A stretch of 64,000 nt of DNA from Buchnera aphidicola (Pemphigus immunis) (GTDB lineage Bacteria; Pseudomonadota; Gammaproteobacteria; Enterobacterales; Enterobacteriaceae): NCBI RefSeq assembly GCF_964059115.1, contig NZ_OZ060408.1, positions 124,001 to 188,000 on the forward strand. The letters run 5' to 3'. Below the pieces are notes generated by a model that saw only the letters and a list, made by a program, of their open reading frames with translations, did no database searches and had not been told where the DNA came from. Of this stretch, positions 5,563 to 60,030 are shown piece by piece (the stretch's first letter is position 1; each line of letters begins with the position of its first letter). Made by a program: the position numbers and the translations under genes.

Positions 5563-5567
5563 GGATT

Positions 5568-5605
5568 AGTAAGGGTATCAGTTAAATAAAACTGATACCC
5601 TTACT
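5568..5605 (+). terminator. Rho-independent terminator of aroH
   Basis: A perfect 16-bp stem, AGTAAGGGTATCAGTT at 5568-5583 pairing with 5590-5605 around a 6-base loop, begins six bases after the aroH stop and is followed by TTATAT. It is one of the most stable hairpins in the window and much richer in G+C than the surrounding spacer. Confidence 0.85.
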
Positions 5606-5683
5606 TTATATAAAACTTTGGTATTTTATATTATATTTAATATACTATATTAAATATGGATTAATTTTTTGATATTATAAAAT

Positions 5684-5692
5684 TGGTATAAT
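5684..5692 (+). promoter_or_regulatory. Candidate extended -10 promoter element for the thrS operon
   Basis: TGGTATAAT matches the extended -10 consensus (TGnTATAAT) downstream of the aroH terminator and upstream of the thrS remnant. There is no convincing -35, and TATAAT-like words are common in this A/T-rich DNA, so this is only a candidate. Confidence 0.3.
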
Positions 5693-5851
5693 CATACACT
5701 TGTTGTTAGTAAAAAATATAAACAATTTTATTAAAGATAAAAATTAGATAATATTAAATATATATTTATTTTTATATTTTTTATAAGATATATTATTATT
5801 TAATAAATCTATATTTTATATTATTTATTTGATGGTTAATAAAGATCTATA

Positions 5852-5988
5852 ATTCTTATTATCACTTTATTAGATGGAAGTAAATGGATATATGATCATT
5901 TTATTCGATAATATAAATTACTAAAGATATTAAAGTAAGTTTAGCACAATCTTTTGTAGTAGATTATATGAATAGTTAATTAGTAGGT
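5852..5988 (+). pseudogene. thrS: Degraded TGS-domain remnant of thrS (lost N-terminus)
   Basis: Translated in two frames, this stretch still resembles the first 45 or so residues of E. coli ThrRS. In the frame of 5852, ILIITLLDGSKWIYDHFI aligns with MPVITLPDGSQRHYDHPV. After a net single-base loss, the frame of 5917 reads ITKDIKVSLAQSFVVDYMNS, aligning with VALDIGPGLAKACIAGRVNG. A TAA at 5977-5979 stands where E. coli has a glutamate, then LVG continues directly into the open thrS frame. The position of the original start is ATT rather than ATG, and a second TAA lies near 5909-5916 in either frame. At least three lesions make a sequencing error an unlikely explanation. Confidence 0.8.
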
Positions 5989-7779
5989 GTGTATACTGTG
6001 ATAAAAAGTGATTCTAAAGTTATTATTATCAATAATAAAAAACGATCTTCTTTAGAAATAATTCGTTATTCTTGCGCGCAATTATTAGCTTATTCTATAA
6101 AAAAAATGTATCCAATATCTAAAATTGCTAATAATACAATTTCTAAAAATGGATTTTATTGTGATATAGATATTGAGGTTAAATTAACTAAAGATGATAT
6201 TTCTGTATTAGAAAAGAATATGTTGAATTTAGTTAAAAATAATTTTTTTTTAATGAAAAAAATAGTTACATGGAAAGATGCTTATAATTTATTTTTATCA
6301 CGTAATGAGATTTATAAAATATATGATTTAGAAAACATTTTTAAAAATCAATCTATGATTGAAATCTATTATAATGAAGATTATGTTGATTTTTGTATTG
6401 GGAAGCAGGTATCGGATGTAAAATTTTGTCGTTTTTTTCAGTTACAGAATATTTCTGGTGCATATTGGAAAGACAACAAAATGAACAAAATGTTACAAAG
6501 AATATCAGGAACTGCATGGTCTAGCGAAAATCAATTAAAAAAATATATTGAAAGTATAAATAAAGCAAAAGAAAGAGATCATAGAATTATTGCCAAAAAA
6601 TTAGATTTATATCATATGCAAGAAGAAGCTCCTGGCATGATTTTTTGGCATCATAATGGTTTTATAATTTTTCGAGAATTAGAAAATTTTGTTAGATGGC
6701 ATTTAAAGCGATATCATTATCAGGAAGTAAAAACTCCTTTTATGATGGATCAATCTATATGGAAAAAAAGTGGTCATTTAAAAAATTATCAAGAATCTAT
6801 ATTTGTTACATCATCGGAAAATAGAAATTATTGCATAAAACCAATGAATTGTCCTGGTCATGTTCAAATATTTAATCAGAGATTGAGATCTTATCGTGAT
6901 TTACCAGTTAGAATTTCAGAATTTGGTACTTGTCATCGTAATGAACCATCCGGTTCTTTACATGGTTTAATGAGAATTAGAGGTTTCACTCAAGATGATG
7001 CCCATATATTTTGTACAGAAGACCAAATTAAAAAAGAAATAAATAATTGTATTAAAATGATATATGATGTATATAATTTTTTTTATTTTAAAAAAATATC
7101 AGTAAAATTATCCACACGGCCTGAAAAACGTATAGGTGATGATAAAATTTGGGATTATGCGGAACGGAATTTAATAGAAGTATTGAAAGAAAATAATTTG
7201 TCATTTGATTATCAAGTAGGAGAAGGTGCTTTTTATGGACCTAAGATAGAATTTTCTTTGCATGATTCTTTAGATCGTGTCTGGCAATGTGGGACAATTC
7301 AGTTAGATTTTTATTTACCAACTAGTTTACATGCGTTTTATATAAATAAAAAAAATGAATATCAGGTACCGGTAATGATTCATAGGGCTATATTAGGTTC
7401 TATAGAAAGATTTATTGGTATTTTAGTAGAAGAGTATAGAGGTTATTTTCCAGTTTGGTTATCTCCCGTACAAGTAGTGGTTATAGGTATTAATAATACT
7501 CATATTAATTATGTAAATCAATTAGTTAAGAAATTGTCTGATGAAGGTATCAGAGTTATATCAGATTTGAGAAAAGATAGAGTTAATTTTAAAATTCGAG
7601 AACATATATTAAATAAAATACCTTATATTTTAATATGTGGTGATCGAGAAGAAAAAAGTAACACAGTAAGTATTAGAACTCGATCAGGTAAAACAATAAG
7701 TAATATAGAATTTAGTCATTGGATAAAAAAATTGAAAAAGAAAATTATAGATCGTATTGGTAATTTATTGGAGGAATAA
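5989..7779 (+). CDS. thrS: Threonyl-tRNA synthetase lacking the TGS domain and with an eroded editing site
   Basis: The class II synthetase charges tRNA-Thr. The open frame has 596 residues against 642 in E. coli: it begins near the end of the former TGS domain, then runs collinearly to LLEE at the C-terminus. The catalytic zinc ligands are kept (Cys288 in MNCPGH, His339 in QDDAHI, the VPVMIHRAILG histidine), as are motif 2 (EFGTCHRNEPSG) and the C-terminal anticodon-binding domain. In the editing domain, E. coli His73/His77 (HSCAH) are Tyr27/Gln31 (YSCAQ), and CRGPH is CIGKQ (Cys136 kept, His186 to Gln140). The start is GTG at 5989 or, better spaced from AGGTG at 5986-5990, GTG at 5998. Its end carries the infC ribosome-binding site. 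Confidence 0.93.
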   Translation: MYTVIKSDSKVIIINNKKRSSLEIIRYSCAQLLAYSIKKMYPISKIANNTISKNGFYCDIDIEVKLTKDDISVLEKNMLNLVKNNFFLMKKIVTWKDAYNLFLSRNEIYKIYDLENIFKNQSMIEIYYNEDYVDFCIGKQVSDVKFCRFFQLQNISGAYWKDNKMNKMLQRISGTAWSSENQLKKYIESINKAKERDHRIIAKKLDLYHMQEEAPGMIFWHHNGFIIFRELENFVRWHLKRYHYQEVKTPFMMDQSIWKKSGHLKNYQESIFVTSSENRNYCIKPMNCPGHVQIFNQRLRSYRDLPVRISEFGTCHRNEPSGSLHGLMRIRGFTQDDAHIFCTEDQIKKEINNCIKMIYDVYNFFYFKKISVKLSTRPEKRIGDDKIWDYAERNLIEVLKENNLSFDYQVGEGAFYGPKIEFSLHDSLDRVWQCGTIQLDFYLPTSLHAFYINKKNEYQVPVMIHRAILGSIERFIGILVEEYRGYFPVWLSPVQVVVIGINNTHINYVNQLVKKLSDEGIRVISDLRKDRVNFKIREHILNKIPYILICGDREEKSNTVSIRTRSGKTISNIEFSHWIKKLKKKIIDRIGNLLEE

Positions 7780-18746: not shown

Positions 18747-19586
18747 ATGAAATATATTGGTGCTCATGTAAGTATTGCTGGTGGATTAAATATGTCGGTA
18801 TTGCGTGCTTATCAATTGAAAGCTACTGCTTTTTCATTTTTTACAAAAAATCAAAGACAATGGAAATCTATTCCTTTAAGTGATAGAATGATTTTTGATT
18901 TTAAAACAGCATGTAATAAATTTAATTACCAACCACATCAAATTTTACCACATGGCAGTTATTTAATTAATTTAGGTCATCCTGATGTTGATTTATTAAA
19001 AAAATCCAGATATGCATTTGTAGATGAAATTATTAGATGCTATGATTTAGGTTTAAAATTAATTAATTTTCATCCTGGGAGTCATTTATATAAAATTACT
19101 GAAGATGCTTGTTTAGAAAGGATAGCTAATTCTATTAATTGGTCTTTGAGCAAAACTCAAGATATTACTCTTGTAATAGAAAATACCGCTGGTCAAGGTT
19201 CTAATATTGGTTATTGTTTTGAACATTTAGCTAGTATTATCAATAGAATTGAAGATAAATCTAGAATAGGGGTATGTTTAGATACTTGTCATTTGTTTTC
19301 AGCTGGTTATGATTTGCGTACTAAAGATTTATATAATCGTACTTTTAAGATATTTGATAGAATAGTTGGTTTTAATTATTTAAAAGGTGTTCATATAAAT
19401 GATTCTAAAAGTCATTTTAATAGTCGTATTGATCGTCACCATAGTTTAGGTAAAGGATATATAGGTTGTGAAACTTTTATTTGGATGATGAAAGATAATC
19501 GGTTTGATAATATTCCTATTATTTTAGAAACAATTAATTCTGATATTTGGTTAGAAGAAATTTCTTGGTTAAAATCTAAACAGTAA
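18747..19586 (+). CDS. nfo: Endonuclease IV (AP endonuclease)
   Basis: This base-excision repair enzyme cleaves the backbone 5' to abasic sites. It has 279 residues (E. coli 285). All metal ligands of the trinuclear zinc site can be seen: [53 protein letters not shown] and ILETIN. It begins [12 protein letters not shown] like E. coli Nfo. It is a single gene, one of few repair functions expected in such a reduced genome, and its integrity suggests continued selection. Confidence 0.97.
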
Positions 19587-19766
19587 ATTTATTAACATGT
19601 AATAATAATATTTATATTTATTTTTATAAATAATTTCATTTATTTTAATATATAAAAATTTTTTAACTTTATTTAATTAAAAATTAAAATTTAATTATTA
19701 GAAATAATATAATTAAATATTTTTTATTGTTAAGTGTACTTTTTACTCATTTTATGGTAACTAATT

Positions 19767-20051
19767 ATGTTTATTATTTATGGAAAGAAAAGAAAAAAAA
19801 CAGGAAAAAGTGCTAGTCGCTATTTACGAGCAAATAATAAATTACCAGGTATTCTTTACGGTAATAAAAAAATTAATATTTCAATTGAATTAGATCATGA
19901 TAGTGTGTTTAACATGCTATTAAAATCTGACTTTTATAAAATTAATTTTCATTTGTCATTAGATAATATAAAATTTTTGGTAACAATAAAATCTGTGCAA
20001 AGACATGCGTTTAAACCTAAATTATTGCATATTGATTTTTTATATGTTTAA
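19767..20051 (+). CDS. rplY: 50S ribosomal protein L25 (bL25)
   Basis: The 94-residue 5S rRNA-binding protein is the same length as E. coli L25 (94). Aligned blocks are GKSASRYLRANNKLPGILYG, IELDHDSVFNML and the C-terminal VQRHAFKPKLLHIDFLYV. The long CTC-type C-terminal extension found in other bacteria is absent, as in enterobacteria. It has its own spacer upstream and is followed 29 bases later by a compact structured element. Confidence 0.96.
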   Translation: MFIIYGKKRKKTGKSASRYLRANNKLPGILYGNKKINISIELDHDSVFNMLLKSDFYKINFHLSLDNIKFLVTIKSVQRHAFKPKLLHIDFLYV

Positions 20052-20080
20052 TTTTTTTATATAATCTCATTATACCGATA

Positions 20081-20162
20081 ATACGTCGGCACATAGTGAA
20101 CTGACTAGTACGCTACAGTATTAATCTTTAGTAAGGGTTAATACTATTTTGTGCCGAGGTGT
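20081..20162 (+). ncRNA. Candidate structured RNA: three-way junction downstream of rplY
   Basis: The 82-base segment folds completely by eye. P1: TCGGCACA (20086-20093) with TGTGCCGA (20150-20157), extended outward by four more pairs across one G-G mismatch (20081-20084 with 20159-20162). P2: TAGTG (20094-20098) with 20111-20115, then ACT/AGT (20100-20102 with 20107-20109) capped by GACT. P3: 13 pairs, 20117-20129 with 20133-20145, 3-base loop. Junction linkers are 0, 1 and 4 bases. Four pairs are G-U when read on the plus strand and would be A-C on the minus strand. No U-tract follows on either strand, arguing against a plain terminator. Family unknown; it could be a 3' UTR element or a small RNA. 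Confidence 0.6.
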
Positions 20163-20212
20163 CAATTTAATAAAATGATATAAAAATTTTTTATTTTTGA
20201 TAATATATTATT

Positions 20213-20977
20213 TTATTCTTGTAGGAATGTTAATTTTATAATTCTTTTTAAAATTTTCATTTCAGGATGAAATTGTATAAAAATTAGACTAATAATACTA
20301 ATTAAAAAACTTATTATTGTTAAATATTTTATTTTTTTTTCAGATAAGGAAAACGTTAAATAACCGTATTTTTTACATTTCCACCATCTCCACATTAACC
20401 ATAATGTACTCCAAATGATAGATAAAACAGACAATATACACCATTTAAAATTGTTATTAATTTGATTGAAAGGAGTATTAATTGCCATACCTGCCAATAT
20501 TCCTGGGAAAAAATATATCGGTGGCCAAAGTAAGCATCCTAGGACACTAGGTAAAATAAATTTTTTTAATGGTAATTTTAACATGCCACAAACCATTGGG
20601 ACTAATGGTCTGGTGGGACCAATAAACCGTCCTATTAAGATGGTAATTATATTATGTTTATATAAAGCATTTTTAATTTTTTTTAAGACAGATTGATGTT
20701 TTTTTAACAAAGACAAATTATGTAACCAATTTTTGAATCGCCATCCAATGTAGTAAGATGTCCAGTCTCCAAATAAACAACCTATAATTCCAATTATCCA
20801 GGAAGAATAGAAGTTTAAAGATCCGTGTCCTATTAATGTTCCTAAACCAGCCATTAATACAATACCTGGAAGAAATAATCCAACTAATGTTAAAGATTCT
20901 AAAAAAGATACTGCAAATACTATAATATATAAATAAGAAAAAGATTGCGCAATTATATATGTTGACCAAGCTTCCAT
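20213..20977 (-). CDS. yabI: DedA-family inner membrane protein YabI
   Basis: At 254 residues it has exactly the length of E. coli YabI. The DedA signatures are present: FLESLTLVGLFLPGIVLMAGLG near residue 24, GDWTSYYIGWRF around 70, and GRFIGPTRPLVPMVCGM around 117. Four to five hydrophobic segments follow. DedA proteins are thought to help polyprenyl-phosphate or phospholipid flipping and proton-motive-force homeostasis; the precise role of YabI is unknown. It is convergent with rplY and divergent from ksgA. Confidence 0.94.
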   Translation of the reverse strand: MEAWSTYIIAQSFSYLYIIVFAVSFLESLTLVGLFLPGIVLMAGLGTLIGHGSLNFYSSWIIGIIGCLFGDWTSYYIGWRFKNWLHNLSLLKKHQSVLKKIKNALYKHNIITILIGRFIGPTRPLVPMVCGMLKLPLKKFILPSVLGCLLWPPIYFFPGILAGMAINTPFNQINNNFKWCILSVLSIIWSTLWLMWRWWKCKKYGYLTFSLSEKKIKYLTIISFLISIISLIFIQFHPEMKILKRIIKLTFLQE

Positions 20978-21402
20978 AGATTTTATTTCTTATAAATTAG
21001 TATTAATTGTTTTAACTTTATTTAAAAAATAATTTTTTAAATTAGGTAATATTCTTATTTTTAAAATTTTGTTTATTTAAGTATAAAAATATGAATTGTA
21101 TCGGTATGTATTATAAATTATCAAATAAAATATATCAAAACTATAATTATATTTAAGAAATAAAGCTTATTTTATTATATAAAAATAAATTTTTGTTCAT
21201 ATATATTGTATATGTTTTTATAATTTTTCTTGATAGAAATACATGATATTTGATATCATACGTTTTATTGATTATATTTATTATTATAAGGTAAAAATTT
21301 CATTATATTTAATATATAATAATTATTATTAAAATAATTGATATAGTAAGTATCATATTTTTTTATATATAAAATTTTTTTATAATCTTTTTTTTATTCA
21401 TT
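20978..21402. other. Spacer between divergent yabI and ksgA
   Basis: 425 A/T-rich bases containing promoters for both genes. A small dyad ATGATA/TATCAT lies near 21242-21260. In E. coli ksgA is preceded by pdxA, surA and lptD; none is recognisable here. Confidence 0.5.
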
Positions 21403-22212
21403 ATGTCTATAAATCAAAAAAAAAATTTTACAGATCACATACCTAATAAAAAATTAGGCCAACATTTTCTTATAGAAAATGAGATAATTAATAAAATAGT
21501 TAAGTATGTTGATCCAAAATCACATAACAATATTTTAGAAATAGGACCTGGTTTAGGTGCATTAACTAAACCAATGTGTATTTTTTTAGAAAAATTATAT
21601 GTAATTGAATTAGATTCTGAATTAGTTAATTTTTTATCTAATTGTTCTTTTTCTAAAAAATTAAAAATTTTAAAAAAAAATGTATTGTCTTATAATTTTT
21701 TAGATATTTTTAATAAAGAAAAAAAAAATATACGTATTGTTGGAAATTTACCATATAATATTTCTGTTCGTTTAATTTTATATCTTTTTAATTTTTGTAG
21801 TATTATTAAAGATATGCATTTTATGTTGCAAAAGGAAGTAGCTAATCGCTTATCAGCTTCTCCAGGAACTAAATGTTATGGTCGTTTAAGTGTTATAGCG
21901 CAATATTATTGTAATATAGTTCCGTTGTTAAAAGTATTTCCAAATTCTTTTACACCTGTTCCAAAAATAGATTCTGTATTTATTAGATTAATACCTAATC
22001 TTACATTTCCTATATTAATAGACGACATAAAAGTGTTAGAAATGATTACTAATGCAGCATTTGGACAACGAAGAAAAATATTACGTCATAGTTTATCTAA
22101 ATTTTTTGATGTTAAAACATTGATGCAGTTAGGAGTGAATCCTATGTTAAGAGCGGAAAATATAACGGTATCTCAATATTGCCAATTAGCTTATTATCTA
22201 ATTATGAAATGA
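21403..22212 (+). CDS. ksgA: 16S rRNA (adenine1518/1519-N6)-dimethyltransferase
   Basis: KsgA dimethylates two adjacent adenines in helix 45 of 16S rRNA and checks 30S assembly. The product has 269 residues (E. coli 273). SAM-binding motif I is ILEIGPGLGALT, motif IV is NLPYNIS, and the N-terminal KKLGQHFL is present. A run of nine A residues close to the start is a possible slippage site, but the frame is open. It lies 61 bases before apaH; the intervening apaG of E. coli is absent. Confidence 0.97.
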   Translation: MSINQKKNFTDHIPNKKLGQHFLIENEIINKIVKYVDPKSHNNILEIGPGLGALTKPMCIFLEKLYVIELDSELVNFLSNCSFSKKLKILKKNVLSYNFLDIFNKEKKNIRIVGNLPYNISVRLILYLFNFCSIIKDMHFMLQKEVANRLSASPGTKCYGRLSVIAQYYCNIVPLLKVFPNSFTPVPKIDSVFIRLIPNLTFPILIDDIKVLEMITNAAFGQRRKILRHSLSKFFDVKTLMQLGVNPMLRAENITVSQYCQLAYYLIMK

Positions 22213-34907: not shown

Positions 34908-34936
34908 GCTTAATTTCCTGATTGTAACATACATGA

Positions 34937-34963
34937 ACGGGCGTAGGTTTTTCCTATGCCCGT
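34937..34963 (-). promoter_or_regulatory. G+C-rich hairpin in the dnaK-dnaJ intergenic region
   Basis: ACGGGCGTAGG (34937-34947) pairs with 34953-34963 around a loop of five identical bases (A in the mRNA). In the minus-strand mRNA one pair is A-C, so the stem is 6 + 4 bp. No U-tract follows, so full termination is unlikely; attenuation, RNA processing or mRNA stabilisation could set the DnaK:DnaJ ratio. It lies about 30 bases before the dnaJ start. Confidence 0.6.
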
Positions 34964-35011
34964 GGTAATTTATTATTTAATTGATATCCTATGGTTAGGT
35001 AATAGAGGATG

Positions 35012-59220: not shown

Positions 59221-60030
59221 ATGACATCATTTGTTAATATTGATTTTTCTAAATCACCACTTTGTGAGACTATTATAACTGCTTTTCGGACTATTCGTAA
59301 AGATTTTCCTTCAGAAGATGTTTTCTCTGAATTGCAAGATAGAATAGATGAAGCCAGGTCGTATATCTCTAACGAAACTAATAAAACTAATCAGTTAAAA
59401 AAATTAATTGAATTATTTTATCATCATTGGAAATTTGGAGGAGCTGATGGAAAATATTTACTTTCAGATGTACTATGGTTAGATCATGTGTTAAAAACAC
59501 GTCAAGGAACAGCTGTATCATTAGGAATAATATTATTGCATATTGCTCATAAATTAGAATTACCATTAATGCCTGTTATTTTCCCAACTCAATTAATTTT
59601 ACGTTCTGATAAAAATGATAATGAAGTATGGTTAATAAATCCTTTTAATGGTGAAACTTTAAATGAACATATTTTAGGAGTGTGGTTAAAAGGGAATATT
59701 AGTCCTACCACAGAATTGTATGAAAATGATTTATATGAAGCTAATTCTTCTGCCGTTATGAGAAAGATATTAGATACTTTAAAATCAGCACTTATGGAAG
59801 AAAAAAAAATGGAATTAGCATTAAATGTTAGTAATGTATTATTAAAAATTAATCCCGACGATCCTTATGAAATTCGTGATCGAGGATTAATTTATGCTCA
59901 TTTAGAATGTAATCATATTGCTTTAACTGATTTAGTTTATTTTGTAGAACATTGTCCTGAAGATCCAATCAGTGAAATTATAAAAGTACAAATTCATTCT
60001 ATAGAACAAAGGAGAATAATATTGCATTAA
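59221..60030 (+). CDS. sirB1: SirB1 family protein (transglutaminase-like / TPR)
   Basis: At 269 residues it matches E. coli SirB1 (YchA) in length and order behind prfA-prmC. It has a transglutaminase-like fold region (RQGTAVSLGIILLHIAHKLELPLMPV in part) and a C-terminal tetratricopeptide-like helical part (LLKINPDDPYEIRDRGLIYAHL). Biochemical function is unknown. sirB2 of E. coli is missing in the 260-base gap upstream. Its preservation implies use, but no role can be deduced. Confidence 0.9.
   Translation: MTSFVNIDFSKSPLCETIITAFRTIRKDFPSEDVFSELQDRIDEARSYISNETNKTNQLKKLIELFYHHWKFGGADGKYLLSDVLWLDHVLKTRQGTAVSLGIILLHIAHKLELPLMPVIFPTQLILRSDKNDNEVWLINPFNGETLNEHILGVWLKGNISPTTELYENDLYEANSSAVMRKILDTLKSALMEEKKMELALNVSNVLLKINPDDPYEIRDRGLIYAHLECNHIALTDLVYFVEHCPEDPISEIIKVQIHSIEQRRIILH

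Follow-up and report, generated by a model that had tools for sequence, protein, structure and literature searches.

In mitochondria, tRNAs mark the ends of transcripts, and the Tick-Box, a motif that follows rrnL in some ticks, has been proposed to be what is finally left of a duplicated tRNA-Leu sequence, retained for the formation of the rrnL 3' end (PMC3471875, in excerpt). Stem-loops that resemble part of a tRNA are likewise supposed to stand in for a missing tRNA mark (same excerpt), and tRNA-like sequences have been described as acting in the maturation of some mRNA ends (PMC9181182, in excerpt). The arthropod mitochondrial Tick-Box is the closest parallel to the element that we describe here, as both would be tRNA remnants serving as transcript-end marks. 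Unlike the Tick-Box, which is a linear motif, the Buchnera element lies on a bacterial chromosome and keeps a base-paired acceptor helix. Its direct ancestor is almost certainly the bacterial tRNA-Pro(GGG) gene (RF00005), with which it shares its strand, its neighbourhood, and its acceptor stem, and of which intact copies survive in sister genomes, but the copy studied here has no anticodon and no T arm and is recognised by neither ARAGORN nor RF00005. It also resembles an intrinsic (Rho-independent) terminator in placing a G+C-rich hairpin after a stop codon, and one relative (L115, g151) has a T-run after the stem; it differs in that the loop side of the hairpin in our copy holds two sub-arms and no T-run comes after it.

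Structured spacers have been reported from Buchnera before. Of 93 further conserved spacers, 61 have significant structure according to an excerpt of PMC3164680, and some of these may be terminators or sRNAs. The main text of that paper, as available in part, names neither rplY nor yabI, and none of its three mentions of tRNA refers to a remnant; the supplements may list the spacer. The portions of PMC6867890, PMC3164680, and PMC3091783 that we consulted hold no description of a tRNA remnant at rplY, the portion of PMC8557413 mentions none of tRNA, rplY, yabI, proL, or terminator, and in the open-licence literature that we searched we found no bacterial tRNA pseudogene described as having kept its acceptor stem. 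Our results carry a warning for such surveys, namely that in reduced genomes a candidate sRNA proposed from a conserved, structured spacer may in some cases be what is left of a tRNA.

The folded element and its tRNA ancestor

The window, by which we mean the whole analysed stretch of 64,000 nucleotides from Buchnera aphidicola (Pemphigus immunis), contains the element at 20081-20162 on the plus strand. Upstream on the same strand is rplY (19767-20051), encoding ribosomal protein L25, and convergent with it is an open reading frame at 20213-20977 on the minus strand, which we take to be YabI, a DedA-type membrane protein. Both gene names come from the initial annotation; relatives of rplY were found by protein search, and the E. 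coli rplY is known by annotation. The 82 nucleotides have a minimum free energy of -33 kcal/mol (z -6.1 against shuffles at -16.55 +/- 2.7), and none of 200 shuffles folds as well. Our prediction reproduced the three-helix fold that had been described for this spacer: a closing stem of 8 bp (20086-20093/20150-20157), extended by four outer pairs (20081-20084/20159-20162) across a G.G mismatch (20085/20158), a small 5+3-bp arm with a 4-base loop (20094-20115), and a 13-bp arm with a 3-base loop (20117-20145), joined by linkers of 0, 1, and 4 bases. The preference for a plus-strand RNA was also confirmed, as four pairs, read directly, are G-U on that strand, and the minus strand folds more weakly (-21.1 kcal/mol, z -3.8, 1 of 200 shuffles as good). 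Among the 31 inter-ORF gaps of at least 40 nt in the window, delimited by a crude ORF rule (ATG, at least 70 amino acids), the element's gap has the lowest 82-nt fold (-31.9), followed by -30.0 (minus strand, gap 5563-6105) and -28.8 (gap 34935-35011), and it holds the sole perfect 8-bp inverted repeat with at least 5 G+C.

Rfam returned no match over the whole window at gathering scores; with the limit relaxed to E 10, the region 20001-20260 gave four weak matches, none of them on the element. ARAGORN called no tRNA in the window, and a cloverleaf with an anticodon arm, which we required of a functional tRNA, was recognised at 20081-20162 by neither ARAGORN nor RF00005, also with the E limit relaxed to 10. 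Elsewhere in the window, a weak RF00005 match at 59926-59974 on the plus strand (16.5 bits, below the cut-off) is perhaps due to chance and perhaps another tRNA remnant.

To place the element among its relatives, we compared rplY loci. A search for DNA similarity in 60 genomes, including its own, gave matches below E 0.001 besides its own in G002 and G003 alone, with just a 20-base match in G001 (E 0.0098); the remaining relatives were reached via rplY. A YabI search of genome contigs returned one locus, from the Buchnera of Pemphigus obesinymphae. The final sample of 64 loci comprises 13 of 30 from a first rplY set (L022-L030, L032, L035, L040, and L046, with L022 being the window's own locus), 18 of 30 from a second set, later additions of 8, 8, and 13 loci, and 4 of 5 regions; all 64 have a downstream YabI or KsgA match. 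Twelve loci of the second set were dropped as not Buchnera-like by eye (L052, L062-L067, L072, L075, L078, L080, and L081). Of the 17 second-set genomes that returned no locus, four were examined (G079, G208, G286, and G254), one was fetched and left unused (G024, L116), and 12 were left out; small genomes of the first set beyond those carried into the second (for example, G182, G228, G236, G237, G301, G308, and G309) may hold further Buchnera.

In 8 of these 64 Buchnera-type loci (L057, L058, L061, L077, L088, L091, L092, and L096), ARAGORN calls an intact tRNA-Pro(GGG) after rplY, and the closing stem of the element is the acceptor stem of these intact copies, with its U-1 and A73. The 5' strand, comprising U-1 and positions 1-7 (TCGGCACA, 20086-20093), is identical to that of the intact copies except for a change of G7 to A, which pairs with the T that replaces C66 in the 3' strand of positions 66-72 and discriminator A73 (TGTGCCGA, 20150-20157). 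The four outer pairs lie outside the tRNA. Alignment with the intact tRNA of L058 identifies the small arm, with moderate support for homology, as the remnant of positions 8-9 and the D arm, while the 13-bp arm and the 4-base linker together (20116-20149) are the eroded anticodon, variable, and T-arm stretch. A further 41 loci, the window's included, have an acceptor stem around a worn interior and are here called decayed copies, so that the stem is present in 49 of 64 loci; stem-bearing loci score at least 21 and the other 15, which are counted in every total of 64, at most 18. Three decayed copies (L055, L056, and L059) represent intermediate stages in which tRNA arms are still visible. L055 (called tRNA-Met) and L059 (called tRNA-Leu) were counted as decayed and L088 as intact on the ARAGORN call, although its D stem looks imperfect. 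In the L059 sequence (G118, 1867-1942), a tRNA-Pro in decay, the anticodon loop has come to read TAA, so that the proline acceptor stem carries what ARAGORN takes for a tRNA-Leu. In L092 (G329), the intact tRNA is followed, within the rplY-yabI spacer, by a tandem array of a 9-base unit (1909-2033, 13.9 copies, 97% matches).

The genome of the window has 33 tRNAs above the RF00005 cut-off, among them a single tRNA-Pro, with anticodon UGG (L118). An intact orthologue in the same place, a kept acceptor stem with decay intermediates, and another proline tRNA in the cell together make the element almost certainly a tRNA-Pro(GGG) pseudogene. The initial annotation had proposed a three-way-junction RNA of unknown family, and this part of it did not survive: the junction is the worn-down cloverleaf of the eroded tRNA gene. 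It is the minimum-energy fold in all four genomes of the window's genus, weakly so in G001 (frequency 0.01, with a centroid without arms), and outside that genus the arms are not conserved and the closing stem alone is kept. We therefore reject a new RNA family, which would have all three helices conserved, and the supposed family gives way to a more testable pattern in which the same tRNA gene died several times, usually losing its decoding parts and keeping one helix.

How the tRNA came to lie next to rplY can be pictured from E. coli, where the tRNA query matched 5375 of 5426 genomes. In the one genome that we opened, strain EC31, tRNA-Pro(GGG), presumably the gene proL, is on the same strand as rplY and 3.4 kb downstream of it, with yejK, yejL, and yejM in between. 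In most Buchnera loci, rplY is followed by the tRNA or its remnant and only then by another gene. We infer that loss of yejK, yejL, and yejM would place tRNA-Pro(GGG) beside rplY. Once it had come to lie there, its function may have lapsed because tRNA-Pro(UGG) would be able to read all proline codons. ARAGORN also calls tRNA-Pro(GGG) soon after rplY in three small-genome relatives that are not Buchnera-like by eye (L067 in G281, L075 in G198, and L078 in G060), so the adjacency of rplY and this tRNA may be older or repeated in origin.

Retention of the acceptor stem and erosion of the interior

Across the 41 decayed copies, identity to the intact tRNA is 308/328 at positions -1 to 7 and 304/328 at positions 66 to 73 (93-94%), a figure that comes from copies chosen for having the stem; the fair figure for retention therefore counts all loci that lack an intact tRNA and is 41 of 56. 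Identity in the interior of the same copies is 233/656 in the D region, 319/697 in the anticodon region, 95/205 in the variable region, and 329/697 in the T region, at or little above the shuffled-interior baselines of 0.34, 0.45, 0.41, and 0.44, respectively. The same contrast is seen within genera, where mean pairwise identity is 0.88-1.00 in the stem, 0.52-0.71 in the interior, and 0.63-0.65 in the 3' flank. Pairing is retained as well: of 328 stem cells, 313 are Watson-Crick and 7 G-U (320/328 together), with 3 A-C and 5 other combinations.

Conservation with compensatory changes had been put forward as the check on a real RNA at related Buchnera rplY loci, and the stem bears this out both by its presence in 49 of 64 loci and by changes within the decayed copies. 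Pair 7 has gone from G-C to A-U after decay in L022, L023, and L026, all of the window's genus, and in L084 and L104; it is also G-U in L024 and L100 and A-C in L102 and L103. The change of pair 4 from C-G to U-A in g84 is already carried by the intact g84 tRNAs, predates decay, and therefore says nothing on constraint after it; the one post-decay change at this pair in g84 is the U-G of L106.

To estimate how often the gene has decayed, we placed the 64 loci on a tree of Nfo, RplY, and YabI, built with a quick method and midpoint-rooted, in which Nfo is present in 53 rows and YabI in 49, and in which 33 of 61 inner branches are starred and 16 drawn open. Rows with an intact tRNA are scattered over it (g134, g116, g69, and g84), and the minimum number of changes among the three states of intact, decayed, and stemless is 15. 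Given this scatter and the assumption that a dead tRNA cannot revive, we read by eye about seven separate stem-keeping decays, namely L055, L059, L053, the other g69 clade, the g84 clade, g1, and the g11 side.

The contrast between stem and interior over repeated decays suggests, at the level of sequence, that the acceptor helix stayed under selection after tRNA function was lost, and the kept helix very probably has some function. The alternative that the stem is a functionless leftover not yet reached by mutation fits with the pseudogenes at varying stages of decay known from Buchnera spacers (PMC3164680, in excerpt) and with the loss of the stem in 15 of the 56 non-intact loci. We regard it as highly improbable, as the very copies with a randomised interior have a stem at 93-94% identity, over several decays, along long branches, and in A+T-rich spacers. 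A still working tRNA of extremely reduced size, for which one could point to the mostly kept acceptor stem, A73, and C1-G72 and to the very short functional tRNAs of mite mitochondria (PMC2797822, in excerpt), is hardly credible: the window's copy has no recognisable anticodon or T arm, decayed elements are just 40-80 nt long with a mean interior G+C of 0.14, and ARAGORN and RF00005 find nothing at the element's place in the window's genome.

Possible roles of the retained helix

The strand of the helix and its gene neighbourhood bear on what it does. A YabI match convergent with rplY is present in 49 of 64 loci, the window included, and the remaining 15 have none (tblastn, E 0.001) and have ksgA next on the same strand instead. 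The convergent arrangement would agree with a bidirectional terminator or collision barrier between rplY and yabI, and an excerpt of PMC3091783 reports a trend of terminators in convergent Buchnera gaps. Yet the stem is kept in 13 of the 15 loci without a YabI match, compared with 28 of 41 non-intact loci with yabI, and the window has no U-tract, so we consider a barrier of this kind improbable. Of the 41 decayed copies, 31 fold better on the plus strand and 10 on the minus strand, which, together with the 13 of 15 yabI-less loci that keep the stem, ties the helix to the rplY transcript and not to the convergent gene.

The element had been said to be neither an ordinary terminator nor a leader, and we uphold both statements; no T-run lies 3' of it in the window (flank GGTGTCAA). 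A terminator scan lists none at the element, the limit of the scan to loops of 3-8 bases making it blind to such a stem. The mean T content of the 8 nt past the stem is 0.51, compared with 0.47 in the next 32, and at least 5 of these 8 are T in 14 of 41 decayed copies, so there is no consistent U-tract. In L115 (G254, g151), the stem, which begins 21 nt past the rplY match, is flanked by an A-run and a T-run on the rplY strand, which gives the remnant the look of an ordinary intrinsic terminator in the making.

Between the end of the rplY match and the stem lie 18 to 156 nt, depending on the locus (49 loci). This variation, the stable fold, and the favoured plus strand would suit a small RNA, or an RNA sponge, that derives from the tRNA remnant and acts independently of rplY, but the interior is near its shuffled level across the 41 decayed copies, leaving no conserved seed region evident, and a promoter scan of 19000-21500 gave no signal above chance (34 sites against 28.3 in shuffles, sd 5.8). 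We hold such an RNA to be very improbable.

On the comparative evidence, the acceptor helix of this tRNA pseudogene has probably been kept as a 3'-end hairpin of the rplY mRNA. In separate lineages, the D, anticodon, and T arms wore away and the 7-bp acceptor stem persisted, with its U-1 and mostly A73; this G+C-rich helix would have stayed under selection because the plus-strand transcript needs it. In the rplY mRNA, this helix may act as an exonuclease barrier, as a weak terminator or processing stop, or as both, separating rplY from what follows. Two points against a plain 3'-end hairpin of rplY are the varying distance between rplY and the stem and a stem whose primary sequence, and not its pairing alone, is held more tightly than hairpin formation would call for. 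U-1 is kept in 40 of 41 decayed copies, C1-G72 in 39 of 41, and the UA of positions 8-9 in 72 of 82 positions, as might be expected if the stem were still a tRNA-processing site, cut by RNase P on its 5' side (U-1/C1) or by 3' maturation enzymes, so that the dead tRNA punctuates the rplY transcript as tRNAs do in mitochondria. We think this rather unlikely. RNase P normally uses the T arm together with the acceptor stem, and most copies have an eroded T arm; 6 of 41 have a base other than A at position 73, L115 no longer has C1-G72, and a kept UA says little where the DNA is A+T-rich and ancestry is shared.

The chances seem to us evenly balanced that, in several Buchnera lineages in parallel, a lost tRNA gene came to mark the transcript end of a ribosomal-protein mRNA by retaining nothing but its acceptor helix. 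Such an element would be the bacterial equivalent of tRNA punctuation in mitochondria and might still be cut by RNase P. If the helix does set or protect the 3' end of rplY, then a regulator-poor genome would be reusing dead RNA genes as transcript punctuation, as mitochondria do.

Loci without the stem

Five of the 15 loci that have lost the stem carry a different strong hairpin within the gap, namely L029 (z -7.4), L111 (z -7.5), and L040, L054, and L068 (z -3.1 to -4.1); these values are inflated, since the best window was chosen, and the scan was confined to stemless gaps. The other ten have no clear substitute, which suggests that the function is dispensable in some lineages. Two of these have middling values (L074, z -2.7; L114, z -2.6), and three g98 gaps are just 17, 46, and 66 nt long. 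A hairpin after rplY is thus common but not required. In all three g144 genomes examined (L040, L054, and L068), a conserved ATTGTTACTG...CAGTAACAAT hairpin occupies the place of the tRNA remnant.
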